This document shows, one piece after another, positions 717 through 31,900 of a stretch of DNA of 64,000 nucleotides. Below the pieces are notes generated by a model. That model had not been told where the DNA came from. It did not search any database and saw nothing but the letters and a program-made list of their open reading frames with translations. Position 1 is the first letter of the stretch, and each line of letters begins with the position of its first letter. Source of the DNA: Branchiostoma floridae (taxonomy: Eukaryota > Chordata > Leptocardii > Amphioxiformes > Branchiostomatidae); NCBI RefSeq assembly GCF_000003815.2, contig NC_049995.1, positions 5,968,475 to 6,032,474 of the forward strand, in the 5' to 3' direction. The position numbers were made by a program, and so were the translations under genes.

Positions 717-1304
717 CTATTTTTTGTTTGGGACTTGTTTGGGTGATTATTTTTTAATTGGTAGGTAGCTGTGTAAAAGCATAGTAAGATGTGTAAGTTT
801 TGGCCACCTAGGGGTTTCGCAGGGGCGTTGAAAGTAATTCTTGTTTTAGGTTTTGAGAAGGAATAATGCAAGAAGGGGTTGGTGGATGTTAATAACTGTA
901 GGTATGCAGACAGCTTACGTAATGATGTACATAATTGTCTACTTGTAATGCAAATTAGGTGGTAATTTGCATCATACAATAGGTATGTGTAGAAACCTTT
1001 TATAGGGCGTGTCTGTGAACAGTCCAGCTGCGTAAGACCATGACAGATTGATCTGATTTTTGGTATGTGGGTAGTTCTTGAGAAGGAGATGAAACGTACG
1101 AGGTGTTTTTTTCGTCTAGTGGCTTCTGACGGTTTTGCAGGGGATGTTTGTACGTGGAAAATGGGTTTTACAGTGGGTATTGCGCAATAGTCCTATATTT
1201 AGGTGATTACGTCATGCCGATGCCAGGATGGGATGCAGTTGTGCATGGACTTACCCCGTCCCCACAGGAAGTGATCCCAAAGGTCATAGTTGCGGCCTTG
1301 AAAA

Positions 1305-1685
1305 TGGTACTATAGGGACAGTACATTATACATGATGGGGTGTACATGTTTCCCATAAGATTTGATAATCTGTAGACCAAGAATAAGGACAATGATGATA
1401 TTGTATACAGGGGGTACATTATACGTTTTAAAAGGGTTGTACATGTAACAGTTACCGGTACAATACATTGTTGAACAAAGCAGGGTTTGTTTTTCACAGT
1501 AACTTGTAGTCATTGATGAGATTGTTTATAGGGATTGTACATTAGACATATGGGATACACAATGTAGTGGACTGCATTGTGAAACAAAGAATGTTACATC
1601 ATCATTATTGCAAGCAACAAGTCGGCAACAATGATCTGTATTGCAGGAGTCGTATATTATACGTAAAGAGGGTTGTACAAAAAAA
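1305..1685. repeat. Degenerate tandem repeat, about four units of roughly 120 bp
   Basis: The theme GTACATTATAC, followed by GGGTTGTACA and often preceded by ATAGGG or CAGGGG, recurs near 1,320, 1,410, 1,533 and 1,648. Units are strongly diverged, so the period is approximate. No coding potential is apparent. Confidence 0.4.
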
Positions 1686-3629
1686 AACTATATTACTTTC
1701 TGTAAACGTCAATATTGATATGTGCGAAGCTAGGTAGCAATTTGCATATTTAATATCTATAAATATCTCTTTTTTCAGTTACAAAATACGTTTGACTGTC
1801 CTGTTATGAAATGCTGCGGATTAATCAATTGTGCAACCTAGACCCTGGCTTGCATTAATAGAACTTGATTATAGAAGGCATCCCCCAAGTTAGGCCATGT
1901 TGATTTGATTATATGGATGACATCCTTTGGGAACTCCAAAACTGATGCGAGCGAGCGAATAAATAAAAGTTTGGCCAAAAAAAAGTTGCATTCAGTATGA
2001 AATCAAAGTGGCCAAGAAGGTTGAACATAGGACTGGACACACATACTAGTATGGTATACCAACAGTTAGGTGTAGGGACCGATACATCGTACGGGTGCAA
2101 AACATGTTTTTTTCTTGGACCAATCCGAAAAAACAGACCTGACAAAAAATTAGAGGAACAAGTTTCGCCGATTACAAAACGGACACACTATGTCGGCAGG
2201 CATTTGGGGTCTTACCGGGGGCCAAGAAGACAACAAGAGCGAAGTCAAGTAGAGTTTATAGTCAATTGTACCAAGTTTCTACAGTCAAAGGTACAGAGAC
2301 AGTTAGCCTTTATTACATGGAGACGGGATTTTAAAATGCCAGTGGGAGTCCAATAATTCACCAAACAGATTCCTTTGTAGCAAAAGTGACCAATTACAAT
2401 TGTTTCGAGTATTGCCAGTTCTAAAGTTTCCACAATAAGGTCCAGGTTCAGGTTCGGACCTGGAAATGATCCTCTGGACCTGATCCACTGGACCTCCGTA
2501 CATGTACCTCCCCCTACCAATAGATTTTTTTCTTTCTGTCCTTTCACATCTTATTCTTTGACTTTAGATTTATTTTGGCATTCTATGGCTTTAGTTCTCT
2601 GTTTTCTGATACTTTTTTTCAATCGACGGAATATTTGTGCTCATTTTAGCGACGCCTGATGGGCGAGCTTAATAGGATAGTGTACGACCGTTTGCAAAAA
2701 ATTCCAAAACTTCCCCAGGAATGTCAGGAATGTAAGATTCCGCGCGTGCGTAGTTGCATCATGTGGGACTGAACCATTACCTCCACGGGTAAGTTTTCCA
2801 GTCGAAGGGTACCATACCGATATACGTGTGCACAGCAGTGTTTTCCGTATTCGCGCAAGGCGATTTTTGACTGATCGCCGAGCAAAATTGAGAAAAGCCT
2901 AGGACTTCAGACGTACCCGAATTGTAGTATGTAGTATGGTGGTCATGGAAATGTAAACATTTGAAACAGGGGATAAAAGATTGTTGAAATATGTTCTTTG
3001 GAAAATGACCTGTGAGTCGTGGAAATTACTTCCGGGTTCGTTCGTGGTTTATGTGTCCAGGAGTTTGAAAAGTTTGGTGGCCTTCTTCATCCTTAATATC
3101 TTTGTTTCAAAAATGCAAACTAATGTGTGAAACAAGCATTGTTTGAGCTTAAATGATGTATCATGTATAACATGTGGGGGGTTGTGAGATAGCGATGTGA
3201 TAGTTTCCTTTGCCAAGAAGGTTATATTTTGGGTAGCGTTTGTATGTGTGTGTGGTTGTAGAAGACCACCATAAGACCCCATAAGTCAAGAACGCCTGGA
3301 TGGATTGTATTGATATTCGGTATGTGGGTAGGTCTGAGACCTGGAAACGATAAGATTTTTGGCCCCCTACTGGCCTGTTACGGTACTGCAGCGAAACTTC
3401 CTGGTTTGATATCTCGAGTTCTGGACATGCTGCGGCTATGATCTTAAGTGGTAGACAGCTCTTGATGCTGTAAGTAAGTGGTATAGGTTTGGGCCCCCCA
3501 GCGGCTTATCTTCGAACTGCAGGACAGGTTTAGACTTAGGTGTAAGACTTTTAAAGGGAATGACTCAAGAAGGGGTTGACGGATTGTTATGGTTTTTGGT
3601 ATGTGGATAGGTTACGCGATGCTTAATAT

Positions 3630-4180
3630 AATTACATATTAATTATGAAGAATTATGCATTATGTGTTTGTCAGCAGGGCTAGCCCTTTGTAATAGCCAT
3701 AGGCTAGTTGGGCAGCCCTGGCTGTGTGTTCGGTGCAGCCAAACCAATAAATAAATAAAGAATTATGCAGAGTGGAAGCTAATTTGCATAATAAACTGGG
3801 AAATTGTCTAAACATGCTCAGTTCAATTATAGGACCATTACAACATGTGACCTTTGTAACTGAGAAAGAAAAGAATATTGATAGATATTCATTATGCAAA
3901 ATAAATACATAATTTGCATAATTAATGAGAAAATGCTATAATGTCATTTTGGTAAATGACGGGAACTTCTTACTTGTAGCATTTAGAAGTTATGTACAAG
4001 TGAACATCGTTGAACATTAACTATGCAAATTAGGTCCTAATTTGCATAAATTAGCAGAAAAGGTGACAAAAGTCTCCTTTCTTAACATATATTGCGCATG
4101 TCTGTTTGTTGAAGATGATCAAGTTATATAGTTTATGCAAAAGAGAGCCTTGTTTGCATAATTCATGACAAACACAATTT
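3630..4180. repeat. Dispersed AT-rich repeat with TATGCAAATTAG motifs
   Basis: The motif pair ATGCAAATTAGG and CCTAATTTGCAT occurs here as a near palindrome (about 4,021-4,046) along with AATTTGCATAATTAATGA variants. Related text recurs at about 4,860-4,890, 5,690-5,720 and 40,150-40,275. The stretch at 3,775-3,900 resembles 5,600-5,715 (both contain GACCATTACAACATGTGA or a close variant). This is probably an old non-coding transposon family. Confidence 0.45.
3672..3762 (+). mobile_element. Retroelement 3'-end fragment with (AATA)n tail
   Basis: The segment has a GC-rich snap-back stem (GGGCTAGCCC, then GGGCAGCCC) and ends in the simple tail CCAATAAATAAATAAAG. Short tandem tails of this kind are typical of SINE and non-LTR LINE 3' ends. 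No coding part is attached. The family assignment is inference. Confidence 0.4.
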
Positions 4181-6482: not shown

Positions 6483-7487
6483 TCAATGGTGGGTTTTACA
6501 ATGTTTGGCCAAAGTGGATTTCTGTGCAGCAGAATAGTCACACTGGTCACACTTGTAGGGTTTTTCACCAGTATGAGTTCTCATATGTTCAAACAAATGA
6601 GACTTCTGAGTTGCCCTGTATCCACACTCCCCACACATGTAGGGTCTGCAATTGCTGCCAGTGTGTTTGGCTAGATGTTGGTCCAAATTGAATTTTCGTG
6701 CTGCAGAATAGTCACAGTGATGACACTTAAAGGGTTTTTCACCTGTATGGGTTCTCATGTGGGTGGATAAGTGAGACTTCTGAGTTGCTCTGTACCCACA
6801 CTCCCCACACATGTAGCGTTTCTCCCCGGCGTGTTGTCGTAGATGCTTGTCCAAAGTGGACTTTCGTGCTGCAGAATAGTCACAGTGATGACACTTAAAG
6901 GGTTTTTCACCAGTATGAGTTCTCATATGTTCGAACAAATGAGACTTCCGAGTTGCTCTGTACCCACACTCCCCACACATGTAGGGTTTGTCACCTGTAT
7001 GTTGTCTAAGATGATCGTTCAAAGTGATTTTCTGTGCAGCAGAATAGTCACACTGGTCACACTTGTAGGGCTTTTCACCGGTATGAATCCTCATATGTTG
7101 TGACAAATGAGACTTCTGAGCTGTCCTGTAGCCACACTCTCCACACATGTAGGGTTTTTCACCGGTGTGTTTTGCTAGATGTTGGTCCAAACTTTTTTTT
7201 AGTGCAGCAGAATAGTCACACAGGTCATACTTGAATGGTTTTTGCCCTGTATGAGTCCTCATGTGCCGGGATAAGTCAGACTTCTTTGCTGTGCTGTACC
7301 CACACTCCCCACACATGTAGGGTTTCTCAGTAGTATTTGCTTCCTGTTGACTGACCAAACTGGTTTTGCTCGCTTTGGGCAGGTCTTTCATTGTGCTTGC
7401 ATCCTTGTCACATAAAACTTCAGTAGGAGACCCATCATAGCAGTTCTGAGGAACAGCAGTAGGAGACCCATGACCTGCCTCTGCCAT
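6483..7487 (-). CDS. C2H2 zinc-finger protein, 10 fingers, 334 aa
   Basis: I take the ATG at 7,487-7,485 (protein starts MAEAGHGSP). It sits in a strong Kozak setting (GCCATGG), and a long pyrimidine run ending TTTATTAG at about 7,495 just upstream looks like a 3' splice site, so a 5' UTR intron is likely. A longer frame upstream of this ATG would only translate that intron. After ~90 residues without known domains come ten C2H2 fingers to the end (KHCKTHH). Odd fingers read YMCGECGYxxxxKSxL, even ones F/YKCxxCDYSAAxK, so the array is a repeated two-finger unit of ~168 bp. Finger 2 has Tyr for its first Cys (FKYDLCDY) and probably does not bind zinc; the linker before finger 9 carries an insertion (TGSNCRPY). 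No KRAB or other effector domain is visible. Likely nuclear DNA-binding protein; target unknown. Confidence 0.85.
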   Translation of the reverse strand: MAEAGHGSPTAVPQNCYDGSPTEVLCDKDASTMKDLPKASKTSLVSQQEANTTEKPYMCGECGYSTAKKSDLSRHMRTHTGQKPFKYDLCDYSAALKKSLDQHLAKHTGEKPYMCGECGYRTAQKSHLSQHMRIHTGEKPYKCDQCDYSAAQKITLNDHLRQHTGDKPYMCGECGYRATRKSHLFEHMRTHTGEKPFKCHHCDYSAARKSTLDKHLRQHAGEKRYMCGECGYRATQKSHLSTHMRTHTGEKPFKCHHCDYSAARKFNLDQHLAKHTGSNCRPYMCGECGYRATQKSHLFEHMRTHTGEKPYKCDQCDYSAAQKSTLAKHCKTHH

Positions 7488-8689
7488 GGCTAACCTAATA
7501 AACAAAAAAAAACAAACAAAAAAACTACATATCAATAAAAACCAGATGGATAACATTTGCAAATAACAAACTTTGTTTACCTTCACCTAGCTAAAAAAAC
7601 TACTGTTTTACTGCTTTGTCTAATCATTCTTACACAAACACATAATCAACGAGCCCCTCCAGCCAGCTCTGTCCGGCCACTCCCTACATTTGACCAGAAA
7701 AATAACGGCGGAGAGACTGTAAGAGGTTAGGTTGGAGAGAGGGAAGCATCTGGAAGTATGAGAACCTTTTGGGTCGGAATTGGGGTATGGATTTGCACCT
7801 CTTTCACCCACCCCCCTCCCCCTTATCAGTTACCTTATAATTTGGAACAGCCTATTATGTAACCAAACACCAAGGGGTGTCTGCTATACCTCCAGTAACT
7901 ATTGTGACAACCATCTGGTTCAGGTCATTGATCATATTTGCTTGGAGAAGAAGAAGAAGCGGAGCTTCCCTTGTTTCCCTTCCGTAAAGTTACTAATATC
8001 CCCCTCCCCACCACATTTTCCTACATCAGGAAAGTCGTACATTTCATATGAATGCCAACATACCATAGATAGGACACATGATATGACTCCTATAGCTCGT
8101 AATAATGCAGTTTATTTTCATGTATATGCCGTTCTTACCTGCTTCCAATGATGATTATTACCTCCGCTCCGCACAATCTTCCGGCCGGAAATCGTCGCGT
8201 CTGTCTAGAGCAGCAAGGGGTGAAAGGTGGCCGTGGGGCTAAAGGTCATTTTCTCGCCTGCTTACCCATTCATTTTGTGGTACGTTTCGTTTACACGTTA
8301 GAGGACCTGCTTTTCTCTCGTATCCTTACTTATTCCTTCTTTCCATTATCTCTGTTTATTTTTTCCGATTTCAAAGCTGTGGGTGATTCACAAACAGTCA
8401 CATGCGTGTATAGTCAGCCTTCCTTTGGGAACAACAATAGGAAATTTGACCCAATTACTAGTATTTTTTACCATAGCGACATGCACTTCTTAGTCAAACC
8501 CAAACAACCAAAGGCGACAGAATCTTCAAAACGCTGACTGTGGTTGTTTCCATATAATGAAGAAGATCTAGAACTTAGACCATAGACCACATCATCACAG
8601 CGTATGACTCGGAATTGTGAGAAGGCCTTTTCTTATTTGCTTGTATTAGGTTGGTTTACGTGCAGTCCCTACAGATAGACTAAATACAT

Positions 8690-11793: not shown

Positions 11794-14700
11794 ATGGCTG
11801 CCACAAACCAAGAAACCCACGCCAGGACAGATCAACCTCGGGCCTACCAAGACAAGAGCTACCTACACGGGTTTCTTGGAACTGTGAGTGACTTTCAGAA
11901 GACTGGGGTACTGCAGGATGTCGTCCTTCAAGTCGAAGGCCGATGGTTTCCCTGCCATCGCCTTGTTCTGTCCGCGGCCAGCCCCTACTTCATGGCCATG
12001 TTCACCAGGGGCATGGTGGAAAGTCGACAGACGAAGGTTGTTTTACAGGTGGGAATGAACTGCTTTTGATTCCAAAATACTGTGGCGAGAACGTATAAGT
12101 TCTTTCACAGAGTTGGCTACACATGCGACAGTAATTCTCTGTAATATGTCAAAGGCAAAGAACCCTGAGATGCAAGCAGTCTCGTCTCGTCCACCGTTAC
12201 TATTTTCCCGTTACCCTAGCATGTGTGGTCAAGTCTGTGAAAGAGCTTATTGTTTACAAAAACAATTTACGTTAAACTCTGCTTTAATCTGTCCCCCAAC
12301 TCCCTTCTTATAATTATTTACCTTCCTGGTAGAGGTTTTTGGTCGACTTTGTACTTCAGAAATTATTATGCTGTTTTCTTTAAGTTAGAAGTTAGAGTTG
12401 TATTATGTGCAAATGATGATAAACGCTATGTCGTTGGATTATTAGCATGGGATACTTTTTACATTTACATAATCAAACATTTCAGATTTGTGATATGTTT
12501 CCCTGTATACCACTGTACATGAATTCAAGATAATGGTATCTTATGTGGCAAAAGGTTGAGCATCCTTGCATTGTATTGTTTTGCAGGGTTTGGATGCAGA
12601 CATGTTTGGGGAGATCCTAAGTTATATCTACTCAGGAACCCTCCATGTGTCTATGGACACAGTGCAGCTCCTGTACCAGGCAGCCGACCTCCTCCAACTG
12701 GACTATGTGAGAGACACCTGCAGCAACTACATGGCTATGAACGTAGAGCGCTCCACCTGTGTGGACCTGTACATGTTTGCTGATGTCTTCTCTGTGAACG
12801 TTGTCCGGAAAGCCTGTCTACAGGAGATTGTTAGGCACTTTTCTGAGGTTAGTCTTCACATTATGGGTTACTTAGGCATGTATTCCAAATGACATGGCTG
12901 ATCCCGATCTTAGCATCACTCGAGTTTATTTGGATCCGGGAGTTTGTCCTAGGACAGGTCTTGATTGCAATCTGTACTAGTAGAATCGACGTTTGTCCTA
13001 GGATGGGTCCTGATTGCAGGTCTGTCCTAGGACAAACTCTGATCACGATCTGTCCTAGGACAATCGGCGACTGTCCTGAATCGCAATCTCTACTGTGACA
13101 TATTTATATGAATTCTGTTACATATGTATCTTGGTTTGAAAAGGTTCGGTGTGACAGGTCATTTCGTCTAATATAAAAAGCTACTGGTGTGCTGCATTTC
13201 TGTATAAATTGGCATACACATGTATAATTTTATACCTGAAAACAAGATTAGACTGAAAAAAGCTTGATGTAGTCTGTACTATGTACATCCTCAGCTTGCC
13301 TCCAGTAAGGAGTTTTGCAGCCTGAGTGTGAATCAGCTGACTGAGATCATCAGCAACGATGAGCTGGATGTTAAAGAGGAGACAATAGTGTGGGAGGCTG
13401 TGGTGAGATGGGTGCAGCACAGCAGGGAAGACAGGTGGGTGTATGTGTTTGGAAACACACATTTATTAATGCATAATCAGGTTTTAAACATGCAATGATA
13501 TTAATTGAGTAAGGCATTGCTATGATACTCTAAAAAACATTCTTCCCTGTACCTTACAGACTGCACCACCTACCCAGTATCCTCCCTCACATCCGCTTCA
13601 ACTTGCTGACCTCAGATGACACGGCAGCCATCTTGGATCACCCCCTGGTCAGGGAGGATGCTGGAAGTTTTAAAGTCATCAGGAAAGTAGTAAATGACAT
13701 TTCGTATCTGAGGAAGAGGTTCGGTATGGACACAATGGAAATGGCTCTACTTCTAAGTTTCAGGTTTGTACACTCTAGTGTCATGTCACAACAAAATGCT
13801 GAAAACTGTGTTTTTGCAATTTTGAAGTATTTTACTGTCATTCAACATTTTACTGTCATTCAACACAAAATTTTCTCACTTCGAATTATGTTTTTACAAT
13901 ATTTGCATGATTATATTGCACGATATTAGTTATACTTACGGTTTACAGACATTTGTACAATATACTTTGGGGAAGCAAATGAAATAAAAATCGTAATATC
14001 CTGCAGTTTAGTGTAATAACAATGAATTAGAATTGTTTGCCTCTCATCAGTACTTTTTAGTAAGCCTTGATGTTCGGTTCGGAACCAGCTGCCATGTTCA
14101 CTGTGACGTCATCGATGGAATAATCAACGTTTAATACAATTACCCGGAGTCAGTAATCAAAAATTGGATGTATGATATTGGATTGTGTGTCATGTTCAAT
14201 AACATCAGAAGAGTGTATATTTAGTGCAAATGTCTGTATTCATTGAATGTTACTAATATCATTGACGTCATTAAAAATATGTTGTATTCTGGTGTCATAA
14301 ACACTTTAAGACAACAGTACACATGCATTGTCTAGTCATAGATACTTACACCAGTCGTAAGTCTACTATGTGGACCGTTCTTTGCTTTTGTGCATTTTGA
14401 TAATCTGTAGAGCCTTTGCTGATAATTTTATGGTAAATTTAGCACATTTTTCTTTACTCTCCAGAAAGAAAGAGATTCTCTTCATGAACCCTCGTGAAGG
14501 AAAGTACATCCGCTGCAGTTACGGTCCTAAAGACCATGGTTATATCTCAGCCATGACAGCCACAAGCGATGACAACATCTACATGCTGGCTAGTGACTTA
14601 GAAGATTCTAGTAAGTTGTGCATGTTTAGGTACGAGCATCTGAAGAACGTGTGGGCACGTGTGTGTTCATTATCTGCGTTCATGAAGCCTGGAAATCATT

Positions 14701-17092: not shown

Positions 17093-17283
17093 ATGGCTGC
17101 CGCTGACCAAGAAACCCACACTATCGCAGTTCGTCCTCGTTGCTACCAAGACGAGAGCTATCTGCACGGGTTTCTTGGGACTGTGGGAGACTTACAGAAG
17201 ACTGGGGTACTGCAGGATGTCGTCCTTGAAGTCGAGGGCCAGAGGTTTCCCTGCCATCGGCTTGTTCTGTCCGCGGCAAGCCC

Positions 17284-17400
17284 TGTTGGACGCCCGTTTG
17301 AGGCACTTGACATGGTCACGTAAAAAAAAGATTAAAAAATTGCGGTGGGCTAAATCAGGCTGTCAAAGGTGTCCTCGTAATCCCCACGAGTTGTTCTATC
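17284..17400 (+). repeat. Left terminal inverted repeat (117 bp) of the 11.7-kb element
   Basis: It is the reverse complement of 28,828-28,944 with about six mismatches. It abuts GCCC of the kelch B BTB exon and contains an A-rich run (GTAAAAAAAAGATTAAAAAA). Confidence 0.92.
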
Positions 17401-17869
17401 TGCCTTGTGAATCTCAAGCGATGGACTTTTACGAGAAAGTATATATTTGATGTCAAAGTTGACCGATTTTCGACAGCTTTTTCCTATGGTTTCGCCATTG
17501 TTTTCAAGCCGAAATACGCACCGTATGGGGGTTTCGGGGTGTCCGCTTAGTGGGCGAGGTTCAACTGTTTCCGGGTCACGCTATACCGTTGCGGCAGTCA
17601 CTCGGGACCTCACTCGGTAGTGTACACAAGTACTTTTGATGGTGCTGTCAGCGTTTTATCACGTTACGAAGTAATATTGAAATGTCTTTGAAGTATAAGA
17701 CAGCACTATGATCTGTAAGGTGTTATTCCAATAGGTTGCGTCGTGGGTAAAGTGAACTGTAGGTAACGTTACCCGACGAAGGCTTTTTGCATCTGACTGT
17801 TAACTGTTGCATATTAGATACATTGCTCGCGCCTGACTAAGGGATTAACTAAGATTAGAACAGTATATA

Positions 17870-20800
17870 GCTAATCAATAGCGAATAACGTTCAGAAGAG
17901 AAACTGTGCCAATTTGAATGACACAAAAAATAGCGCCGTAAGAATTGTAACGTTATATAGCTAACTTGTAGCGGAAAACGTGTTCAGAAGACAAACTGTG
18001 TCAATTTGAATGACACATCTAAAGTACCGTTGTGCGCTGCATTAAGTGTATATAGCTAACTAATAGCGAAAAACGTGTTCAGAAGAGAAACTGTCAATTT
18101 GAATGACACACTCACAGAACAGTAAGAACTATAACGTTATGTAGCTACGTATACATGTAATAGCGCAAAACGTGTTCAGAAGACAAACAGTGTCAATTTG
18201 AATGACACACTTGCAGATAGCGCAATAAGAACTGTACATAGCTAACTCATAGCGGAAAAAGCGTTCAGGAGACAAACTGTCAATTTGAATGACACACTTA
18301 CAGGTAGCGCAATAAGAAATGTATATAGCTAACTCATAGCGAAGTGTAACGTGATCAGAAGACAAACTGTGTCAATTTGAATGACACACTTGCAGATAGC
18401 GCAATAAGAACTGTATATAGCAAACTAATAGCGGAAAAAGCGTTCAGGAGACAAACTGTGTCAATTTGAATGACACACTTGCAGATAGCGCAATAAGATC
18501 TGTATATAGCAAACTAATAGCGGAAAAAGCGTTCAGAAGACAAACTGTGTCAATTTGAATGACACACTTGCAGATAGCGCAATAAGAACTGTATATAGCA
18601 AACTAATAGCGGAAAAAGTGTTCAGAAGACAAACTGTGTCAATTTGAATGACACACTTGCAGATAGCGCAATAAGAAATGTACATAGCTAACTCATAGCG
18701 AAGTGTAACGTGTTCAGAAGACAAACTGTGTCAATTTGAATGACACACTTGCAGATAGCGCAATAAGAACTGTATATAGCAAACTAATAGCGGAAAAAGT
18801 GTTCAGGAGACAAACTGTGTCAATTTGAATGACACACTTACAGGTAGCGCAATAAGAACTGTATATAGCAAACTAATAGCGGAAAAAGTGCTCAGGAGAC
18901 AAACTGTGTCAATTTGAATGACACACTTGCAGATAGCGCAATAAGAACTGTATATAGCAAACTAATAGCGGAAAAAGTGTTCAGGAGACAAACTGTGTCA
19001 ATTTGAATGACACACTTGCAGATAGCGCAATAAGATCTGTATATAGCAAACTAATAGCGGAAAAAGTGTTCAGGAGACAAACTGTCAATTTGAATGACAC
19101 ACTGGCAGATAGCGCAATAAGAACTGTATATAGCAAACTAATAGCGGAAAAAGTGATCAGAAGACAAACTGTGTCAATTTGAATGACACACTTGCAGATA
19201 GCGCAATAAGAAATGCACATAGCTAACTCATAGCGAAGTGTAACGTGATCAGAAGACAAACTGTCAATTTGAATGACACACTTGCAGATAGCGCAATAAG
19301 AACTGTATATAGTAAACTAATAGCGGAAAAAGTGTTCAGGAGACAAACTGTCAATTTGAATGACACACTGGCAGATAGCGCAATAAGAACTGTATATACC
19401 AAACTAATAGCGGAAAAAGTGTTCAGGAGACAAACTGTGTCAATTTGAATGACACACTTGCAGATAGCGCAATAAGAACAGTTTATAGCAAACTAATAGC
19501 GGAAAAAGTGTTCAGAAGACAAACTGTGTCAATTTGAATGACACACTTGCAGATAGCGCAATAAGAACAGTTTATAGCAAACTAATAGCGGAAAAAGTGT
19601 TCAGAAGACAAACTGTGTCAATTTGAATGACACACTTGCAGATAGCGCAATAAGAAATGTACATAGCTAACTCATAGCGAAGTGTTACGTGTTCAGAAGA
19701 CAAACTGTGTCAATTTGAATGACACACTTGCAGATAGCGCAATAAGAACTGTATATAGTAAACTAATAGCGGAAAAAGTGTTCAGGAGACAAACTGTGTC
19801 AATTTGAATGACACACTTGCAGATAGCGCAATAAGAAATGTATATAGCAAACTAATAGCAGAAAAAGCGTTCAGGAGACAAACTGTGTCAATTTGAATGA
19901 CACACTTGCAGATAGCGCAATAAGAACTGTATATAGCAAACTAATAGCTGAAAAAGTGTTCAGGAGACAAACTGTGTCAATTTGAATGACACACTTGCAG
20001 ATAGCGCAATAAGAACTGTATATAGCAAACTAATAGCGGAAAAAGCGTTCAGGAGACAAACTGTGTCAATTTGAATGACACACTTGCAGATAGCGCAATA
20101 AGAACTGTATATAGCAAACTAATAGCGGAAAAAGTGTTCAGGAGACAAACTGTGTCAATTTGAATGACACACTTGCAGATAGCGCAATAAGATCTGTATA
20201 TAGCACACTAATAGCGGAAAAAGTGTTCCAGAGACAAACTGTGCATTTGAATGACACACTGGCAGATAGCGCAATAAGAAATGTCATAGCTAACGCATAG
20301 CGAAGTGTAACGTGTTCAGAAGACAAACTGTGTCAATTTGAATGACACACNNNNNNNNNNNNNNNNNNNNNNNNNNNNNNNNNNNNNNNNNNNNNNNNNN
20401 NNNNNNNNNNNNNNNNNNNNNNNNNNNNNNNNNNNNNNNNNNNNNNNNNNNNNNNNNNNNNNNNNNNNNNNNNNNNNNNNNNNNNNNNNNNNNNNNNNNN
20501 NNNNNNNNNNNNNNNNNNNNNNNNNNNNNNNNNNNNNNNNNNNNNNNNNNNNNNNNNNNNNNNNNNNNNNNNNNNNNNNNNNNNNNNNNNNNNNNNNNNN
20601 NNNNNNNNNNNNNNNNNNNNNNNNNNNNNNNNNNNNNNNNNNNNNNNNNNNNNNNNNNNNNNNNNNNNNNNNNNNNNNNNNNNNNNNNNNNNNNNNNNNN
20701 NNNNNNNNNNNNNNNNNNNNNNNNNNNNNNNNNNNNNNNNNNNNNNNNNNNNNNNNNNNNNNNNNNNNNNNNNNNNNNNNNNNNNNNNNNNNNNNNNNNN

Positions 20801-23800
20801 NNNNNNNNNNNNNNNNNNNNNNNNNNNNNNNNNNNNNNNNNNNNNNNNNNNNNNNNNNNNNNNNNNNNNNNNNNNNNNNNNNNNNNNNNNNNNNNNNNNN
20901 NNNNNNNNNNNNNNNNNNNNNNNNNNNNNNNNNNNNNNNNNNNNNNNNNNNNNNNNNNNNNNNNNNNNNNNNNNNNNNNNNNNNNNNNNNNNNGCGCAAT
21001 AAGAAATAAGAAATGTATATAGCAAACTAATAGCGGAAAAAGCGTTCAGGAGACAAACTGTGTCAATTTGAATGACACACTTGCAGATAGCGCAATAAGA
21101 ACTGTATATAGCAAACTAATAGCTGAAAAAGTGTTCAGAAGACAAACTGTGTCAATTTGAATGACACACTTGCAGATAGCGCAATAAGAACTGTATATAC
21201 CAAACTAATAGCGGAAAAAGTGTTCAGGAGACAAACTGTGTCAATTTGAAGGACACACTTGCAGATAGCGCAATAAGAACAGTTTATAGCAAACTAATAG
21301 CGGAAAAAGTGTTCAGAAGACACACTGTGTCAATTTGAATGACACACTTGCAGATAGCGCAATAAGAAAGGTACATAGCTAACTCATAGCGAAGTGTTAC
21401 GTGTTCAGAAGACAAACTGTGTCAATTTGAATGACACACTTGCAGATAGCGCAATAAGAACTGTATATAGCAAACTAATAGCAAAAAAGCGTTCAGGAGA
21501 CAAACTGTGTCAATTTGAATGACACACTTGCAGATAGCGCAATAAGAACTGTATATAGCAAACTAATAGCAGAAAAAGTGTTCAGGAGACAATTTGTGTC
21601 AATTTGAATGACACACTTGCAGATAGCGCAATAAGAAATGTATATAGCAAACTAATAGCTGAAAAAGTGTTCAGGAGACAAACTGTGTCAATTTGAATGA
21701 CACACTTGCAGATAGCGCAATAAGAACTGTATATAGCAAACTAATAGCGGAAAAAGCATTCAGGAGACAAACTGTGTCAATTTGAATGACACACTTGCAG
21801 ATAGCGCAATAAGAAATGTATATAGCAAACTAATAGCGGAAAAAGTGTTCAGGAGACAAACTGTCAATTTGAATGACACACTGGCAGATAGCGCAATAAG
21901 AACTGTATATAGCAAACTAATAGCGGAAAAAGTGATCAGAAGACAAACTGTGTCAATTTGAATGACACACTTGCAGATAGCGCAATAAGAACTGTATATA
22001 GTAAACTAATAGCGGAAAAAGTGTTCAGGAGACAAACTGTGTCAATTTGAATGACACACTTGCAGATAGCGCAATAAGAACTGTACATAGCTAACTCATA
22101 GCGGAAAAAGCGTTCAGGAGACAAACTGTGTCAATTTGAATGGCACACTTACAGGTAGCGCAATAAGAAATGTATATAGCAAACTAATAGCGGAAAAAGT
22201 GTTCAGAAGACAAACTGTGTCAATTTGAATGACACACTGGCAGATAGCGCAATAAGATCTGTATATACCAAACTAATAGCGGAAAAAGTGTTCAGGAGAC
22301 AAACTGTGTCAATTTGAATTACACACTTGCAGATAGCGCAATAAGAACAGTTTATAGCAAACTAATAGCGGAAAAAGTGTTCAGAAGACACACTGTGTCA
22401 ATTTGAATGACACACTTGCAGATAGCGCAATAAGAAATGTACATAGCTAACTCATAGCGAAGTGTTACGTGTTCAGAAGACAAACTGTGTCAATTTGAAT
22501 GACACACTTGCAGATAGCGCAATAAGAAATGTACATAGCTAACTCATAGCGAAGTGTTACGTGTTCAGAAGACAAACTGTGTCAATTTGAATGACACACT
22601 TGCAGATAGCGCAATAAGAACTGTATATAGCAGACTAATAGCGGAAAAAGTGATCAGAAGACAACTGTGTCAATTTGAATGACACACTTGCAGATAGCGC
22701 AATAAGAACTGTATATAGTAAACTAATAGCGGAAAAAGTGTTCAGGAGACAAACTGTGTCAATTTGAATGACACACTTGCAGATAGCGCAATAAGAACTG
22801 TACATAGCTAACTCATAGCGGAAAAAGCGTTCAGGAGACAAACTGTGTCAATTTGAATGGCACACTTACAGGTAGCGCAATAAGAAATGTATATAGCTAA
22901 CTCATAGCGAAGTGTAACGTGATCAGAAGACAAACTGTGTCAATTTGAATGACACACTTGCAGATAGCGCAATAAGAACTGTACATAGCTAACTCATAGC
23001 GGAAAAAGCGTTCAGGAGACAAACTGTGTCAATTTGAATGACACACTTGCAGATAGCGCAATAAGAACTGTATATAGCAAACTAATAGCGGAAAAAGTGT
23101 TCAGAAGACTAACTGTGTCAATTTGAAACACACTTACAGGTAGCGCAATAAGAAATGTACATAGCTAACTAATAGCGAAGTGTAACGCGTTCAGTTGACA
23201 AACTGTGTCAATTTGAATGACACACTTGCAGATAGCGCAATAAGAACTGTATATAGCAAACTAATAGCGGAAAAAGTGTTCAGGAGACAAACTGTGTCAA
23301 TTGAATGACGCATTTATAGAACAGCGATGTATGTAAGAACTGTATATATCAAACTTAAAGCAAAAAACGTGTTCAGAAGACTACCTGTGTCAATATGACA
23401 CATTATAGAACAAAGCTGTTAGAACTGTATATAGCAAACTAATAGCGAAAAACGTGTTCAGGGGACAAACTGTGTCAATTTGAATGGTACACTTGCAGAA
23501 TAGCGCCGTAAGAACTGTATATACATGTAACGTTAGCTAGCTTAAAGCAGAAAGCGTGTTCAAGAGACAAACTGTGTCAATTTTAATGACACACAGAATA
23601 GCGCCAAAAAACTGTATATAGCTAACTTAAAGCATAAAGTGAGTTCAGAAGACTACCTGTGTCAATTTGAATGACACACCTATAGAATAAGCACTGTTAC
23701 AACATGTATATATATTTAACTAACAACGCAACGTGTTCAAGAGACAAACTGTGTCAATTTGAATGACACATTATAGAACAGTGCTGTAAGAACTTTATAT

Positions 23801-24150
23801 AGCAAACTAATAGCGAAAGACGTGTTCAGGAGACAAGCTGTGTCAATTTGAATGGCACACTGACAGAATAGCGCCGTTAAAACAGTATATAACTAACTTA
23901 AAGCGAAAAGTGTATTCAGTAGACTACCTGTGTCAATTTGAATGACAGATTTATAGAAAAGTGCTGTAAGAACTGTATATAGCGGATAACGTGTTCAGGG
24001 GACAAACTGTGTCAATTTGCATGACATACTCACATTATAGCGCCGTAAAAACAGTACATAGCTATCCAATTAAAAAAAAACGTGTTTAGGATACAAAATG
24101 TGTCTATGTGAATGACACATTCATAGAACAGCGAGGTAGATTTATTTTGA
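17870..24150 (+). repeat. Satellite array, ~89-bp monomer, left arm of the 11.7-kb element
   Basis: Successive GTGTCAATTTGAATGACAC cores are 89 bp apart (for example 18,369 and 18,458). The monomer also contains GCAGATAGCGCAATAAGAAC, a TATATAGCAAACTAATAGCG block and GTGTTCAGGAGACAAACT. About 70 units, including the gap. Two sub-types alternate irregularly: CAAACTAATAGCGGAAAAAG and CTAACTCATAGCGAAGTGTA. Blocks of several monomers are duplicated (about 21,900-22,170 resembles 22,630-22,890). Units are most uniform at 18,360-23,300 and decay at both array edges. Frames open through it are low-complexity artefacts. Confidence 0.95.
20351..20993. other. Assembly gap (643 N)
   Basis: The run of N lies inside the left satellite array, with satellite sequence on both sides. 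True length there is unknown, so the element may be longer or shorter than 11,661 bp. Confidence 0.99.
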
Positions 24151-24219
24151 CGAAAGCTTGCTCTAACAAAAACTTTTTCAATCGGATGATCATACTATTT
24201 GATTATCGCTTTACTTTAC

Positions 24220-27200
24220 TTGTTTGTCATATGAATTGACACAGTTGCCCTCCTAACGAAGTTTTCTGTTGTAAAATGGTTATATGCAGTTCTTACAGCG
24301 CTTTTCTTTAGGTGTGTCATACAAACTGACACAGTTTTGTGTCCTGAACACATTAGCCGTTAAGATTTAGTCATACATTTGTATACTATACGTTCGGCGC
24401 TATTCTACAAATGTATCGAAACAAATCGACACAGCTGTGCTTTTGACTACGTTTTCATCAATAAAGTTGTTAGGTACAGCCCAAAGTACACTTTTTACCA
24501 GTGTGTCATATAAATTGACACAAATTCTTTACTGTCCAACTTTTTCCGTGATCAATTTTACACACGTTAAACAGCGCTTTTCTAATTGTGGGTGATATAG
24601 ATTGACACAGTTGTCCCCCGGAAAAACGTTTTCCATTTTTAAGACACGGTTCAAACATCGCTTACAAAGGTGTCAGACAAATTCACGCAATTTCCCTCCT
24701 GAAAAAGTCGTCCGCCATCAAGACAATTTTACACTGATTTCACATCGTGTTTCATAGCGTGTCATATGAAATAACAGTTGTCCTCCTGACAAGGTTTTCT
24801 GTCATTTGATACAGTTGTCGTCCTGACCGTGAGGGTTTTCCGTTTTGTGAAATTTCAATAAGTTTTAAAAAACTTGTTAATTGACACAGTTGTCGTCCCG
24901 ACCAAGTCTTCCATCAGTTAAATACTGTTTAATCATCGCACTAGTGTGCCATACTATCAGTGACAGTTGTCCACCAAAGTTTCCGTCATGAGGCAGTTTT
25001 ATACTGTTTAACACTCGGTTATTAATTGCAAAGCCGTCCTCCTGACAAAGTTTTCTGTTATAAACTATTGTGTCAATTAATGTGACAAACTAGCAAACTG
25101 AATAGATATGCCTAAATCGTATAATCATTCGATTGAAAAAGTTTTCGGCAGAGCGAGTTTTCCGTCATAAGATAGTTATTATGCGTTTCAAAAGTGTGTC
25201 ATATGATTGACACAGTTTTCAGCTCAGACAGCGCAGTACTAGATTTGACAGTTTACTTGAACAAGTTAGTATTTGAGTTACTTTAAACCCTACCATGGTC
25301 CAAACTCCAGTAATCAGTTGTTAATTGATATGAAATAACCGCATCTAAAGTCATATATATTCGAAGGAACGCCATTTAGTTCGTAAGAAGGGACCTTAGA
25401 ACTTGTCTGACACACTTGCAGAAAAGCGCTGCCTGAACCGCGCTATTATGTAAGTGTGTCATTCATATTGACACAGTTTGTCTCCTGAACACGTATTTTG
25501 CTATTAGTTAGCTATATACAGTTCTTACGGCGCTATTATGTAAGTGCGTCATTCAAATTGACACAGTTTGTCTCCTGAATACGTTTTCGGTATTAGTTTG
25601 TTATATACAGTTATTTGGGCGCTGTCTACAAGTGTGTCATTCAAATTGACACAGTTTGACATTTGAACACGCATTCCGCTTTAAGTTAACTATATACAGT
25701 TCTTACAGCGCTATTCTATAATGCATTGTGTCATTCAAATTGACACAGTTTGTCTCCTGAACATGTTTTTCGCTCCTAGTTAGCTATATACAGTTCTTAC
25801 GGCACTATCATGTAAGTGTGTCATTCAAATTGACACAGTTTGACTCCTGAACACGTGTTTTCGCTATTAGTTAGCTATATACAGTTCTTACGGCACTATT
25901 ATGTAAGTGTGTCATTCAAATTGACACAGTTGGACTCCTGAACACGTTTTCCGCTATTAGTTAGCTATATACAGCTCTTTTAGCTTTGTTCTATAAGTGT
26001 GTCATTCAAATTGACACAGTTTGACATTTGAACACGCATTGCGCTTTAAGTTAGCTATATACAGTTCTTACAGCGCTGTTCTATGAATGCATCATTCAAA
26101 TTGTGTAATTCAAATTGACACAGTTTGACTCCTGAACACGTGTTTTCGCTATTAGTTAGCTATATACAGTTCTTACGGCACTATTATGTAAGTGTGTCAT
26201 TCAAATTGACACAGTTGGACTCCTGAACACGTTTTCCGCTATTAGTTAGCTATATACAGCTCTTTTAGCTTTGTTCTATAAGTGTGTCATTCAAATTGAC
26301 ACAGTTTGACATTTGAACACGCATTGCGCTTTAAGTTAGCTATATACAGTTCTTACAGCGCTGTTCTATGAATGCATCATTCAAATTGACACAATTTTTC
26401 TCCTGAACACCCTTTTTCGCTATTAGTTAGCTATATACAGTTCATTCAGCTTTGTTCTGCAAGTGTGTCATTCAAATTGGCACAGGTTGACACCTGAATA
26501 CGTTTTCCGCGATTTCTTAGCTATATACAGGTCTTACATTGCTGTTCTATAAATGTGTCATTCAAAGTGACACATTTTGTCTCCTGAACACGTTTCTCGC
26601 TATTAGTGAGCTATACACAGTTCTTACGGCGCTATTATGTCAGTGTGTCATTCAAATTGACATAGTTTGTCTCCTGAACACGTTTACGCTATTAGTTAGC
26701 TATATACAGTTCTTACGGCACTATTATGTAAGTGTGTCATTCAAATTGACACAGTTTGACTCCTGAACACGTTTTCCGCTATTAGTTAGCTATATACAGT
26801 TCTTTTAGCTTTGTTCTATAAGTGTGTCATTCAAATTGACACAGTTTGACATTTGAACACGCATTCCGCTTTAAGTTACCTATATACAGTTCTTACAGCG
26901 CTATTCTATAATGCATTGTGTCATTCAAATTGACACAGTTTGTCTCCTGAACACGTTTTTCACTATTAGTTAGCTATATACAGTCCTTACGGCACCATTA
27001 TGTAAGCGTGTCATTCAAATTGACACAGTTGGACTCCTGAACACGTTTTTCGCTATTAGTTAGCTATATACATTTCTTTCAGCTTTGTTCTATAAGTGTG
27101 TCATTCAAAGTGACACAGTTGGACTCCTGAACACGCATTGCACTTTAAGTTACCTATATACATATTTTTTACAGCGCTGTTCTATGAATGCAGCATTCAA

Positions 27201-28420
27201 ATTGACACAGTTTGTCTCCTGAACACGTTTTTCGCAATTAGTTAGCTGTATACAGTTCATTCAGCTTTGTTCTATAAGTGTGTCATTCAAATTGACACAG
27301 TTTGTCTCCTGAATACGTTTTCGCTATTAGTTTGCTATATACAGTTCTTTGGGCGCTGCCTACAAGTGTGTCATTCAAATTGACACAGATTGACATTTGA
27401 ACACGCATTCCGCTTCAAGTTAACTATATACAGTTCTTACAGCGCTATTCTATAATGCATTGTGTCATTCAAATTGGCACAGTTTGTCTCCTGAACATGT
27501 TTTTCGCTCCTAGTTAGCTATATACAGTTCTTACGGCACTATCATGTAACTGTGTCATTCAAATTGACACAGTTTGACTCCTGAACACGTTTTTCGCTAT
27601 TAGTTAGCTGTATACAGTTCATTCAGCTTTGTTCTATAAGTGTGTCATTCAAATTGACACAGTTTGTCTCCTGAATACGTTTTCGGTATTAGTTTGCTAT
27701 ATACAGTTCTTTGGGCGCTGTCTACAAGTGTGTCATTCAAATTGACACAGATTGACACTTGAACACGCATTCCGCTTCAAGTTAACTATATACAGTTCTT
27801 ACAGCGCTATTCTATAATGCATTGTGTCATTCAAATTGGCACAGTTTGTCTCCTGAACATGTTTTTCGCTCCTAGTTAGCTATATACAGTTCTTACGGCA
27901 CTATCATGTAAGTGTGTCATTCAAATTGACACAGTTTGACTCCTGAACACGTTTTCCGCTATTAGTTAGCTATATACAGTTCTTTTAGCTTTGTTCTATA
28001 AGTGTGTCATTCAAATTGGCACAGTTTGACACCTGAATACGTTTTCCGCGATTACTTAATAGCTATATACAGGTCTAACATCGCTGTTCTATAAATGTGT
28101 CATTCAAAGTGACACATTTTGTCTCCTGAACACGTTTCTCGCTATTTGTTAGATACATACAGTTCTTACGGCGCTATTATGTATGTGCGCCATTCAAATT
28201 GACATAGTTTGTCTTCTAAACACGTTTATCGCTATTAGTTAAGCTAACATACAGTTCTTACGGTGCTATTATGTAAGTGTGTCATTCAAATTGACACGGT
28301 TTGTCTCCCCAAGGAGGTCTCCCGAACACGTTTTCCGCTATTAGTTCCCTGTATACACTTCTTACAGCACTGTTCTATAAATGTGTTATTCAAATTAACA
28401 CAGTTTGTCTCCTGATGTCT
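24220..28420 (-). repeat. Satellite array in reversed orientation, right arm of the 11.7-kb element
   Basis: The same satellite reads here as GTGTCATTCAAATTGACAC, then GTTTGTCTCCTGAACACG, then GCTATTAGTTAGCTATATAC and GTTCTTACGGCGCTATTATG. From 24,220 to 25,430 the units are strongly decayed; from 25,430 to 28,420 they are regular. Higher-order copies are visible: a ~285-bp block near 25,909 recurs near 26,194, and a ~360-bp block near 27,365 recurs near 27,725. Sub-types differ from those of the left arm (for example TTTGACATTTGAACACGCAT), so the arms have been evolving separately. Confidence 0.93.
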
Positions 28421-28827
28421 ACGAGAATGCCAGTTAGTTCGTTCGGAAGGGACCTTACAACCGTTGCAGATTCGCAACGTGGGCCGAGACGATACGAACA
28501 AACACAAACTTAAAAAACGTTCTGCAAGTTCAAACATACTTTCGCCAAGAGTCCCTTAACAAACCTAATTTAACAATATGCGTAAGCCTGACTTGAATCC
28601 TCCTCTACCGAACCTCAGACTGAGACCGTCAAGATACCTGGTGACCCGCGTTCAATGACCTCACTCGTACGACCCGGAAGTATATGATCGTAATCGGTTG
28701 CACGGAAACCCCCATGCAGTGCGAAATCGAGGCCGAAAACAGGCATAAAGAGCCAGTTTGAAGGCTAACTTTGACTCTTCAAATCTCATCCCGAAATAAT
28801 ATTTGAATCAACACGAGTACTGTAGGC

Positions 28828-28944
28828 GATAGAACAACTCGTGGGGATTACGTGGGCACCTTTGACAGCCTGATTTGGGCCACCGCGATTTTTTAATCTT
28901 TTTTTTACGCGACCATGTCAAGTGCCTCAAACGGGCGTCCAACA
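28828..28944 (-). repeat. Right terminal inverted repeat (117 bp) of the 11.7-kb element
   Basis: It mirrors 17,284-17,400. It ends GGGCGTCCAACA and is followed by GCCCCTACTTC, the continuation of the BTB exon (SPYF). Confidence 0.92.
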
Positions 28945-31900
28945 GCCCCTACTTCAGGGCCATGTTTACAAGTGACATGGCGGAAAGTCGGCAGAAGACA
29001 GTTGTGTTACAGGTAGGGTTGGCGTGACGTGTGGTTAGAATAGAGTGAAAAGGGCAACTTTCAAAGTTGCTACTTATCATGGAGAATTTATAACCACGTA
29101 TATATACAATAATAACCACGAGTTCTTGTTAAACTTTTCTCTGATAAGTGTTGTGTTCCTTGTCATGCCCCCTCCCCAGTTCGTACTAACCCCTTTGGTA
29201 TTTCGGGCTTCAAGTTCAACTTTCTAGCCTATAATATTTTCAGTTTTCAAAACTTAGAAATGCTTCCGGTTATAAGCACCAGAGCACGGTGTATAAGTTA
29301 AAATAATGTAGAAAAACGAATGCATGTTAATCATTGATATAAATAATACTTAATCATATTTTAATGTTATGAACGTTTGGATGCTTGAAATCTTTTACAG
29401 GATTTGAGTGCAGCTATTTTTGGGGAGATCCTGAGATACATTTACTCCGGAAACCTTAATGTATCGATGGACAAAGTGCAGCCCCTGTACCAGCTGCAGG
29501 CAGCCAGCCTCCTCCAACTGGACTATGTGAGAGACACCTGCAGCAGCTACATGGCCATGAACGTGGAGGGCTCCAACTGTGTGAATCTGTACAAGTTTGC
29601 TGATGTCTTCTCTGTGGACATTGTCCGGAAAACTTGTCTGCAGTTTATCTGTAGAAACTTTGTTGAGGTGGGTCTGATATTTTGATACTAGGTCAGTAGT
29701 CACTTTATCCTAGTCACTTCTCTCTCACGATTGGGAGCTTGGAAGCAATGCCATTAATTTTCTAGAAGACGTGTTAATGTACAATTTTTGAAAAATTATA
29801 GTTTTATCATTTCTTGCACTGTAAGTATTGTAAGTACGATGACCATTCTTTTAAAGATCAAATTTTGTGGATGTGTGGGCCTGAGTTAGATGCAATGGTA
29901 GGTGCAGCTCAGACATACTGTACGGGATAGCATCTGGAATTTTGGATGATGACGTTAAACTGATGGCCCAGTGTATGAAAGAGCTTAAGAGTATGCCTCA
30001 AGCGTTAAACCCCTGCACGTAATGGAACCCAACAAACCTATCAACAAAGTGTAGGTGTGATGACCCGATTCGTTTGGTTGAAAACGTGTGACGTGACAAG
30101 GCCACCATGCAGTTTCACGAATTTGGTTACATTTCATTTTCAATTTAACCATCATATCTGTCATCAGGAAAATATTGAAGATTAAAACCCACTTTTCAGA
30201 GCTAGTTTTTCAGTTTCAGAAAATCTTTACCAAGAAAGTTTTTTTCCACAGTTTTACACATCTACAATAAATAACATGTCCACAGATTGCCTCCAGTGAG
30301 AAGTTTTGCAGCTTGAGTGTGAGTCAGCTGACTGAGATCATCAGCCACGATGACCTGGATATTAAAGAGGAGACAACAGTGTGGGAGGCTGTGGTGAGAT
30401 GGGTGCAGCACAACAGAGAGGACAGGTGGGCGCTGTATAATTATCAATATATTTTCCAACCTTGTGTCTTCTTCATTGCATGTATGAAGTCTTGGAGATT
30501 ACTTTGAATGACAAGTTGTTTTTTTCCATGAGGCTCAGTGTCCCTTACCAGGTAACTCAACCACCAAAAACTGCGAAAAATGAATAAAAATTGGCAGGAT
30601 AGAATTCAAAATGTCCAAAAATATTTTCTACACATGACAGGCATATATTATGCAGTATTTTAAGATGGGCAAACTACTATTGAAGATGGCCTACCTGTAC
30701 TATAGTATAATGCAATGGTGCCAGGCTAACCTTGTTTTAGTGCAGTGACCTCAGATGACCCCTAAAATGTATGCCATAGCTGGATTCAAACATATTCCCT
30801 GCAGTGATTTAAAAAAAGTCATCCTATGTACCCTACAGACTGCAACACCTACCCAGCATCCTACCTCACATCCGCTTCAACCTGCTGACTTCAGGCAACA
30901 TAGCAGCCATCTTGGAACACCCCCTGGTCAGGGAGGACCCTGGGAGTTCAAAGGCCATCAGGAATGTGGTAAAGAAGAGGAACCCCAACCTGAAGCCAAG
31001 GCTTGGGATGACCATGGAGATGGCTATTCTATCCAACACAGAGTCTGTATATACTTCTTTTGTTTGACTTTCTAGATTGCGACCTTGCGCATTGTCTTTT
31101 TTCAATTCCAGTTATTTCACCCAAAGCAAACATTAACATGCGCAGCGACACGTGCCTTCCAGGTCTTCCATGAAAATTGTGTAAACCTTATTACAGTCCG
31201 CAATTACAAACACTTGAACATATAATGCAAATATTTTACAGACGTTTAACAATTAACAGGAAAAAAAGTAAGAGGGCCAGCAATCTTAACCTACAATGTA
31301 TTAGTCAGCATTTGTATGTTTCAGGGGTGGGCGCGCTATGTTGAAGGTCCATACACAGGCCGCCTTTCCTGTTGGTGCCTTTGTTTCCTTTTGGAGTATG
31401 TAAAACATTATTTTCAGCATCTCTGCTTATCAATTCGTAGTTAGGTTATGAAACCAGTGTTTTCTACCATATCACCTCATTATAACTGACAGAATGAAGT
31501 GGATGCTACCCGAAACGTTTGACCATCTTCAAAACCATATCGCTTAAGTAATGTTTCTGTTGTGTCATATTACCTGTATATAAATGTTTTACCCTCATCA
31601 ACGCAACATTTTATGTATGTTACCCTTTCCAGGACCGATGAGCTCCTCTTTATGAACCCTCAGCAAGGGAGGTACATCAGCTGCAGTTACAAACCTGAAG
31701 ACATACCTGAAGTCACAGCCTTAACAGCCACCAATGATAACAACATCTACATCCTGGTTAATGAGTATGACGGCCTCGATCAACTGTATATGTTCAGATA
31801 TAACCATGCAGAAAACTTTTGGGGACATGGCGGTATATCAAAAGTATCTAAATTTAAAAGAGTGCACTCAGGTTTGTTAACTCATTGGAATGAGTTCCTT

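Follow-up and report, generated by a model that had tools for sequence, protein, structure and literature searches.

A satellite-armed foldback transposon in a lancelet kelch exon belongs to a family inserted at a fixed distance from a YY1-type motif

The stretch of 64,000 nucleotides from the lancelet Branchiostoma floridae analysed here (NC_049995.1, positions 5,968,475 to 6,032,474 of the forward strand; hereafter the window) contains a non-coding DNA transposon of 11,661 bp at window positions 17284-28944, which begins with TGTTGGACGCCC, ends with GGGCGTCCAACA and interrupts the BTB exon of a kelch gene. The presence of this insertion, as described in a first-pass annotation made from the letters of the window, is confirmed. 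The surprising part, which that account overlooked, is the spacing between insertion and a YY1-type motif, which is constant for the element and for most other complete copies of its family. As a pattern, this targeting rule is very strongly supported, and the mechanism only moderately.

Duplications and the flanking motif at the insertion sites

The first 34 bases of the terminus, with up to three mismatches allowed, were found at 65 places in the 513-Mb genome of B. floridae, compared with none for the reversed pattern used as a control. The 65 termini represent 27 two-ended copies, which are 3.9-17.2 kb in length (a nested element is included in the largest), and 11 unpaired ends, two of which (on C7 and C13) have an inner-terminus match at a plausible place for the partner. 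Eighteen of the two-ended copies, besides the one in the window, were read whole and another (L025/L026) as two overlapping pieces; the remaining seven were read at their junctions, with one left junction taken from L002.

Both junctions were read in all 27 two-ended copies. An exact duplication of 4 bp is present in 19 of them and one of exactly 5 bp in another two (L011 and L019), while four have a duplication with one mismatch (L017, L020, L040, and L043) and two have none (L013 and L028). The duplicated letters have no sequence in common among the copies. The further genomic copies of the terminus and the shared 4-bp duplication, which the first-pass annotation had named as checks on the insertion, were thus both found.

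Beyond the duplication, CCAT is located at outward position 16 from the junction on one flank in 22 of the 27 copies, and at position 17 in one more (L024). All other positions from 1 to 56 have it in one copy at most, and no peak is seen for the reverse motif ATGG, which reaches at most two copies at any position. CCAT has a density of 1 in 253 per strand position in the host DNA of the window, from which it would be expected at position 16 in 0.21 copies; the probability of observing 22 is 4e-42. The motif and its position were chosen after the flanks had been viewed, and a correction for tens of thousands of alternatives leaves the verdict unchanged. The logo of the flanks reads (C)(C)GCCATnTT(G), with a nearly free letter after CCAT, and is based on 24 copies assigned to position 15, an assignment that tolerated mismatches and thus includes L013 and L043. 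As read from these sites, the rule consists of a 4-bp duplication, 10 nucleotides and the GCCAT within CCGCCATnTTG, with the insertion 5' of that strand of the motif. Both copies with an exact 5-bp duplication retain CCAT at position 16.

The number of ends with CCAT at position 16 rises to 25 when three of the nine unpaired ends with a readable flank are included. Of these, five agree with CCGCCATnTTG at all ten fixed letters and six at nine, four of the ten letters being preset by the selection of ends with CCAT. The motif faces the right end of the element in 17 cases and the left end in eight, and an orientation bias of the element toward the motif was not convincing. Since either end can face the motif, the enzyme seems largely indifferent to which end is near.

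The consensus binding site of YY1 is CCGCCATnTT, with the core GCCAT (PMC8998550; here and below, statements on published work refer to excerpts of the cited papers). The flank logo CCGCCATnTTG equals this consensus, including the unconstrained position after CCAT, and, as judged by CCAT at position 16, a YY1 consensus is found at the fixed distance in 22 of the 27 copies.

The interrupted kelch exon, the element and its relatives

Removal in silico of the element and one GCCC leaves an open exon of 255 bp in kelch copy B that extends up to a GT and can be aligned to positions 11794-12053 in kelch copy A (85% over 191 bp and 84% over 70 bp; Table 1). The frame is also open in the downstream exons of copy B that are alignable to copy A. 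The junction reading and the alignment bear out what had been noted at first, namely the GCCC on both sides, the restored exon of the same length as in copy A and the empty site in that copy. The BTB domain of kelch copy B is cut by the insertion. In the window, the motif GGGCCATGTTT is part of the coding sequence for F-R-A-M-F.

A search of the genome with the right half of the exon and the DNA downstream of it gave 71 matching pieces, which represent many lancelet paralogues, and the same search revealed no second near-identical place for this gene copy in the assembly. Ten kelch loci were returned, including the window's own, and the exon site was readable by a text pattern in six of the nine paralogues. 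All six sites are empty; the target letters of the window, from GCCC to GTTT, are present in five, and a single base is changed in the sixth. The exon insertion had been presented as a rare event, and although the insertion itself stands, its drama was overstated, because the host gene has many paralogues in the lancelet and the loss of one copy is therefore less dramatic.

Table 1. Features of the interrupted locus in window coordinates, and of the diverged relative in its own contig
Feature	Position	Strand	Basis or remark
Kelch copy A, paralogous exon with empty site	11794..12048	+	GCCATG at the equivalent place
Interrupted BTB exon of kelch copy B, 5' half	17093..17283	+	
Target duplication, left copy, GCCC	17280..17283	+	Junction reading
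Left terminal inverted repeat, TGTTGGACGCCCGTTTGAGG...	17284..17405	+	94.3% over 123 columns against the right terminus
Left subterminal unique region, ~475 bp	17406..17878	+	
Left satellite arm, 89-bp monomers in + orientation	17879..24137	+	N gap inside
Seven diverged satellite monomers, opposite orientation	24215..24801	-	Six at a stricter threshold
Core, ~0.6 kb, mostly not satellite, no long reading frame	24802..25435	.	
Right satellite arm, 90-bp monomers in - orientation	25436..28415	-	
Right subterminal unique region, ~410 bp	28416..28823	-	
Right terminal inverted repeat	28824..28944	-	Alignment to the left terminus
Target duplication, right copy, GCCC	28945..28948	+	Junction reading
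Interrupted BTB exon of kelch copy B, 3' half, then GT	28949..29012	+	
YY1-type target motif GGGCCATGTTT, core GCCAT at 28959-28963	28957..28967	+	Outward positions 13-23 from the right end of the element
Diverged relative L129	C10:5978604-5986603, element at 124-3659	reverse	Motif-spacing search

The junctions and the anatomy of the element agree with the initial description of a giant, non-autonomous foldback transposon with satellite arms that is cleanly inserted in the BTB exon. Its outermost ends are TGTTGGACG...CGTCCAACA. The terminal inverted repeats, initially given as 117 bp with ~95% identity, are present but somewhat longer, about 121-122 bp, with 94.3% identity over 123 aligned columns. 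The interior had been described as nearly all one satellite in two opposed arms; the arms are there, but so are seven inverted, diverged monomers and a core of ~0.6 kb. In all, the insertion carries nearly a hundred satellite monomers. The length of the left arm is an assembly estimate, because a gap of 643 Ns (20351-20993) sits inside it. Leaving aside frames that cross this gap, the reading frames that overlap the element are of 127 residues or fewer.

The layout is common to the copies that were read through, with arms of variable length and the conserved termini TGTTGG...CCAACA. A left array in + orientation and a right array in - orientation are found in 20 copies, including the one in the window, and contain roughly 9-63 and 15-33 monomers, respectively, where they are uncut by N gaps. 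Behind the left arm, 15 of the 19 other copies have an inverted block of 2-7 monomer matches. Exceptions to the layout are L012 and L028, which lack the usual core, L016, which has a gap and no inverted block, and L020, more than half of which is N. The left and right ends are of two distinct types common to the copies, except for the left end of L029, which was not assignable to a type. At the left end, the alignment of 17 copies over 590 bp gives a divergence of 0.3-2.2% from the majority, and at the right end the range is 0-2.3% for 19 copies aligned over 520 bp, with the exception of the outlier L028 (2.7% on the left and 14% on the right). The window copy differs from the majority by three substitutions in 588 positions on the left and by none in 516 on the right. 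The low divergence of the ends suggests that the family is young and was apparently active recently.

Two loci with termini are of unusual structure. The first base of a 13.8-kb contig (C341:1-10001, with L042 and L008) is also that of a terminus, and two further termini lie inside; the contig is either a repeat-collapsed assembly or a broken scaffold. Two termini on C16 (L048 and L056, C16:19073222-19087194) are placed 14 kb apart and have the first T replaced in both; one of them, L056, keeps only 19 bp of the terminus. The locus may represent a failed or rearranged transposition without duplication.

A second search used the spacing rule as a prediction and combined the AACA end, 12 nucleotides and CCGCCATnTTG. 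It gave 57 matches, five of which are known copies, compared with 17 for a reversed control that does not preserve the motif. Among the 40 of 52 new matches that were read, there is one diverged relative (L095/L129), located beside a perfect CCGCCATCTTG. It has the related terminus TGTTGACCGCCGAAAAGAGGCACAAGACAT and, at a distance of 3.5 kb, a second terminus in inverted orientation (51 bp, 96%), and its two ends are 71% identical to the window element over 282 bp and 84% over 133 bp. It contains one array of about twenty 101-bp monomers, the consensus of which is 61% identical to the 89-bp satellite. A LINE-like (long interspersed nuclear element) reading frame of 1192 residues was recognised by eye next to L129.

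The degenerate terminus of the lineage is TGTTGNNCGCCNNNNNGAGGCANNNGACATNGTC. A 20-base pattern of the terminus gave 82 matches, compared with 30 for the reversed control, and the matches with two to three mismatches were read in part. The inner piece of the terminus gave 140 matches, which leaves about 75 extra sites after subtraction of the 65 known. L054/L058 and 20 of these sites (L109-L128) represent one relic terminus inside another repeat, with a flank common to all 20. They were considered as autonomous relatives and rejected, as no autonomous element was seen there, and L054 and L109-L128 would thus stem from a piece of the element that a second element has amplified. At L055 there is a truncated, old relative with a few monomers, and L057, which shows no similarity, was rejected as a relative.

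In the satellite, a palindromic box, TGTGTCAATTTGAATGACACA, holds the best-conserved 19-bp window in the left (489), right (360) and middle (65) monomers, as counted over 914 of 1051 aligned monomers after the loci L012, L020, L025, L026, and L028 had been dropped. Its palindrome, TGTGTCA..TGACACA, may be a candidate protein-binding site. Much of the box arms is kept in a relative, relative B (TGTGTCATGGGCATGACGCA), but the box ranks 56 of 83 there and is not the best conserved, and a constraint on this site across the lineage was therefore not upheld. The word TGTCAA was also tried as a transposase site common to the termini and the satellite, and was dismissed as too weak, since its count was reached in 69 of 2000 shuffles.

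Elsewhere in the window, tandem arrays of 85 and 78 bp are located at 52755-53005 and 55016-55684, with units that share GATGACGTCA-type and TTGGACAGT-type stretches, and these are perhaps parts of another repeat-built element. C2H2 zinc-finger-like frames on the minus strand, repetitive at 84/168 bp, were recognised by eye at 79-753 and 6483-7586.

Candidate mechanism and its alternatives

Starting from the observed family, duplication, motif and spacing, we estimate a probability of about 0.6 that this is a young, non-autonomous and probably cut-and-paste family, mobilised in trans by an integrase-like transposase that is docked by the lancelet orthologue of YY1. The transposase would be supplied by an unseen relative, and its kind is suggested by the TGT..ACA ends in combination with a stagger of 4-5 bp, which are typical of integrase-type elements (Ginger, PMC2836005; IS481EU, PMC10045372). 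It would dock beside the YY1 orthologue on the DNA, which would place strand transfer immediately outside the footprint of that protein; YY1 has been reported to bind retroviral integrases (PMC8998550). The kelch exon would have been hit because its codons for F-R-A-M-F spell a YY1-type site, and the satellite arms would be baggage carried along, growing and shrinking supposedly by unequal exchange. A broader version, which we put forward only tentatively, is that the base-exact rule (4-bp stagger, 10 nucleotides, YY1 site) arises by docking on YY1, is old and ancestral to the lineage, and is shared with the relative whose ends are 16-29% diverged.

Several observations weigh against docking on YY1. 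CCAT is found at neither position 16 nor 17 in four of the 27 copies: L018 has no near match at the place of the motif, L013 differs by two letters there, although a CCGCCATCTTTG begins near position 31, and L020 and L043 have one-letter variants of the core (GGCAT and GCCAC). Six of the nine unpaired ends with a readable flank have no motif in that flank. Outside the damaged end L056 on C16 there is a perfect CCGCCATCTTGG, the CCAT of which is located at 11-12 rather than 16, about 4 bp nearer than in intact copies. The window's own motif matches only seven of the ten fixed letters of CCGCCATnTTG. By eye, 39 of the 40 matches read from the spacing search are unrelated DNA, and L095/L129 supports the rule only in part because its flanks have no matching target duplication. 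The duplicated letters agree with the target of neither Ginger1 (CCGG/CCGT) nor Ginger2 (RTATAY). Finally, no transposase gene or autonomous copy was recognised in the copies read through.

Two candidates for the family transposase were examined and not accepted. The 17-kb copy L025/L026 (C12:10871606-10888829) is the only two-ended copy read through that has frames of more than 200 residues, but these belong to a nested, unrelated element; by eye, we take them to resemble the YqaJ, PHD and DDE_4 parts of an ISL2EU-type transposon. The gag-like frame at L052 lies beyond a short right-end piece and was taken, by eye, as part of a neighbouring LTR (long terminal repeat) retroelement.

The strongest competitor to docking on YY1 is that the transposase reads CCGCCATnTTG with a DNA-binding domain of its own and that YY1 is uninvolved. 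The fixed spacing and the one-sided motif would suit such a domain equally well as a tether, and the domains of the transposase are unconstrained, none having been seen. We nevertheless consider direct reading unlikely, since the motif equals the consensus of a conserved host factor down to the free position after CCAT, and a host factor that is reported to bind integrases would be the more economical reader.

A preference for open promoter or start-codon DNA, rich in ATGGC and YY1 sites, with the spacing as a by-product of the position of a nucleosome or an initiation complex, is far less probable. YY1 sites are found near transcription starts (PMC8998550), and a frame of 50 codons or more is open from the ATG of the motif in two of the 23 joined flanks. 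However, the frame closes within 31 codons in the other 21 (introns were not modelled), which indicates that the motif does not serve as a start codon at most sites and leaves the start-codon explanation without support in these flanks. Moreover, the precision is to the single base, with 22 of the 27 copies at position 16 and one at 17, and the insertion in the window is inside a coding exon, with the ATGG strand of the motif antisense to the gene.

That the family consists of ordinary satellite-armed foldbacks without a target rule, with the motif present by chance or shared ancestry of the flanks, would agree with the Tetris-like architecture and the unspecific duplicated letters, but is very hard to reconcile with the chance probability given above and with the printed flanks, which differ between copies outside the motif and so indicate that the copies were not multiplied together with their flanks. 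A misassembly, in which the half exons are not truly joined by the DNA of the element, is similarly improbable: there is the 643-base gap in the left arm, and arrays are hard to assemble, but the ends are conserved, the 4-bp duplication is exact here and in 19 of the 27 copies overall, the layout recurs in other copies, and a public protein model (96% identity over 88% of the query) starts with MFTSDM, directly after the insertion, though it very likely derives from the same assembly.

Comparison with known elements and significance

The inverted arms of tandem repeats in variable number, the lack of coding capacity and the target duplication place the family among the foldback elements. Foldback elements with satellite arms include FB and the sea-urchin element TU. 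Another is Tetris of Drosophila virilis, which was placed in Mutator by its authors (PMC4079207), and the initial claim of an undescribed type of element was therefore too strong with regard to the architecture. Like the lancelet family, Tetris is non-coding, has a variable number of satellite monomers in its arms and a middle domain, and its autonomous partner was not found. It differs in its monomers of ~220 bp, terminal repeats of up to 1,735 bp and duplications of 8-10 bp (PMC4079207), whereas the lancelet family has 89-bp monomers, copies of 3.9-17.2 kb, duplications of 4-5 bp and a fixed flanking motif. The 8-10 bp typical of Mutator-type foldbacks were not found here, since the duplication is 4-5 bp in the 21 copies in which it is exact.

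The IS481EU elements resemble the lancelet family in their TGT..ACA or TNT..AYA ends and often 4-bp duplications, but they are from parabasalids, have duplications of about 4, 15 or 25 bp, and satellite arms are absent from the excerpted description (PMC10045372). Ginger1 and Ginger2 have TGTNR termini, inverted repeats of 40-270 bp and 50-180 bp, respectively, and 4-bp duplications (5 bp in TDD-4/5), and families of them are present in B. floridae (PMC2836005). The lancelet element has the TGTNR ends and a terminal repeat within the 40-270 bp of Ginger1, and its duplication is of the same length in 19 of the 27 copies. None of these 19 exact duplications is CCGG or CCGT/ACGG, as in Ginger1, and none is TATA, as would be expected from the RTATAY target of Ginger2/Tdd. 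The lancelet family also differs from Ginger in that no transposase was seen in the copies read and in that the motif is located outside the duplication.

Integration steered by a DNA-bound host protein is known from Ty1/Ty3, Tf1, the P element and similar systems, which are mostly retroelements and use other host factors. More similar is the integration of retroviruses, which is helped by YY1 (Inayoshi 2010, as cited in PMC8998550 and PMC12958612) and likewise combines an integrase-type enzyme with this protein. What is described there is facilitation and enrichment in viruses, as opposed to a rule by which a DNA transposon inserts at a base-exact distance. A search of the open-access literature, with subscription papers and Repbase outside its scope, gave no title that joins YY1 with a transposon target rule, and in the excerpts of PMC3983033, Yy1 occurs only in a table of ChIP (chromatin immunoprecipitation) data sets. 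The family is thus known in its architecture, and its target rule is new as far as searched.

Through this family, satellite DNA can be spread over the chromosomes, and a single insertion such as the one in the window sets nearly a hundred monomers beside a regulatory-type motif. If YY1 is indeed the reader, this would be a DNA transposon with a host-factor address that can be read to the base and a tether that could be tested with one protein, and it would provide a natural route to site-directed insertion. It would also explain how a giant, repeat-laden element came to land in a coding exon, and tethering by YY1 could unite DNA transposons with the contact between YY1 and integrase that has been reported for retroviruses.

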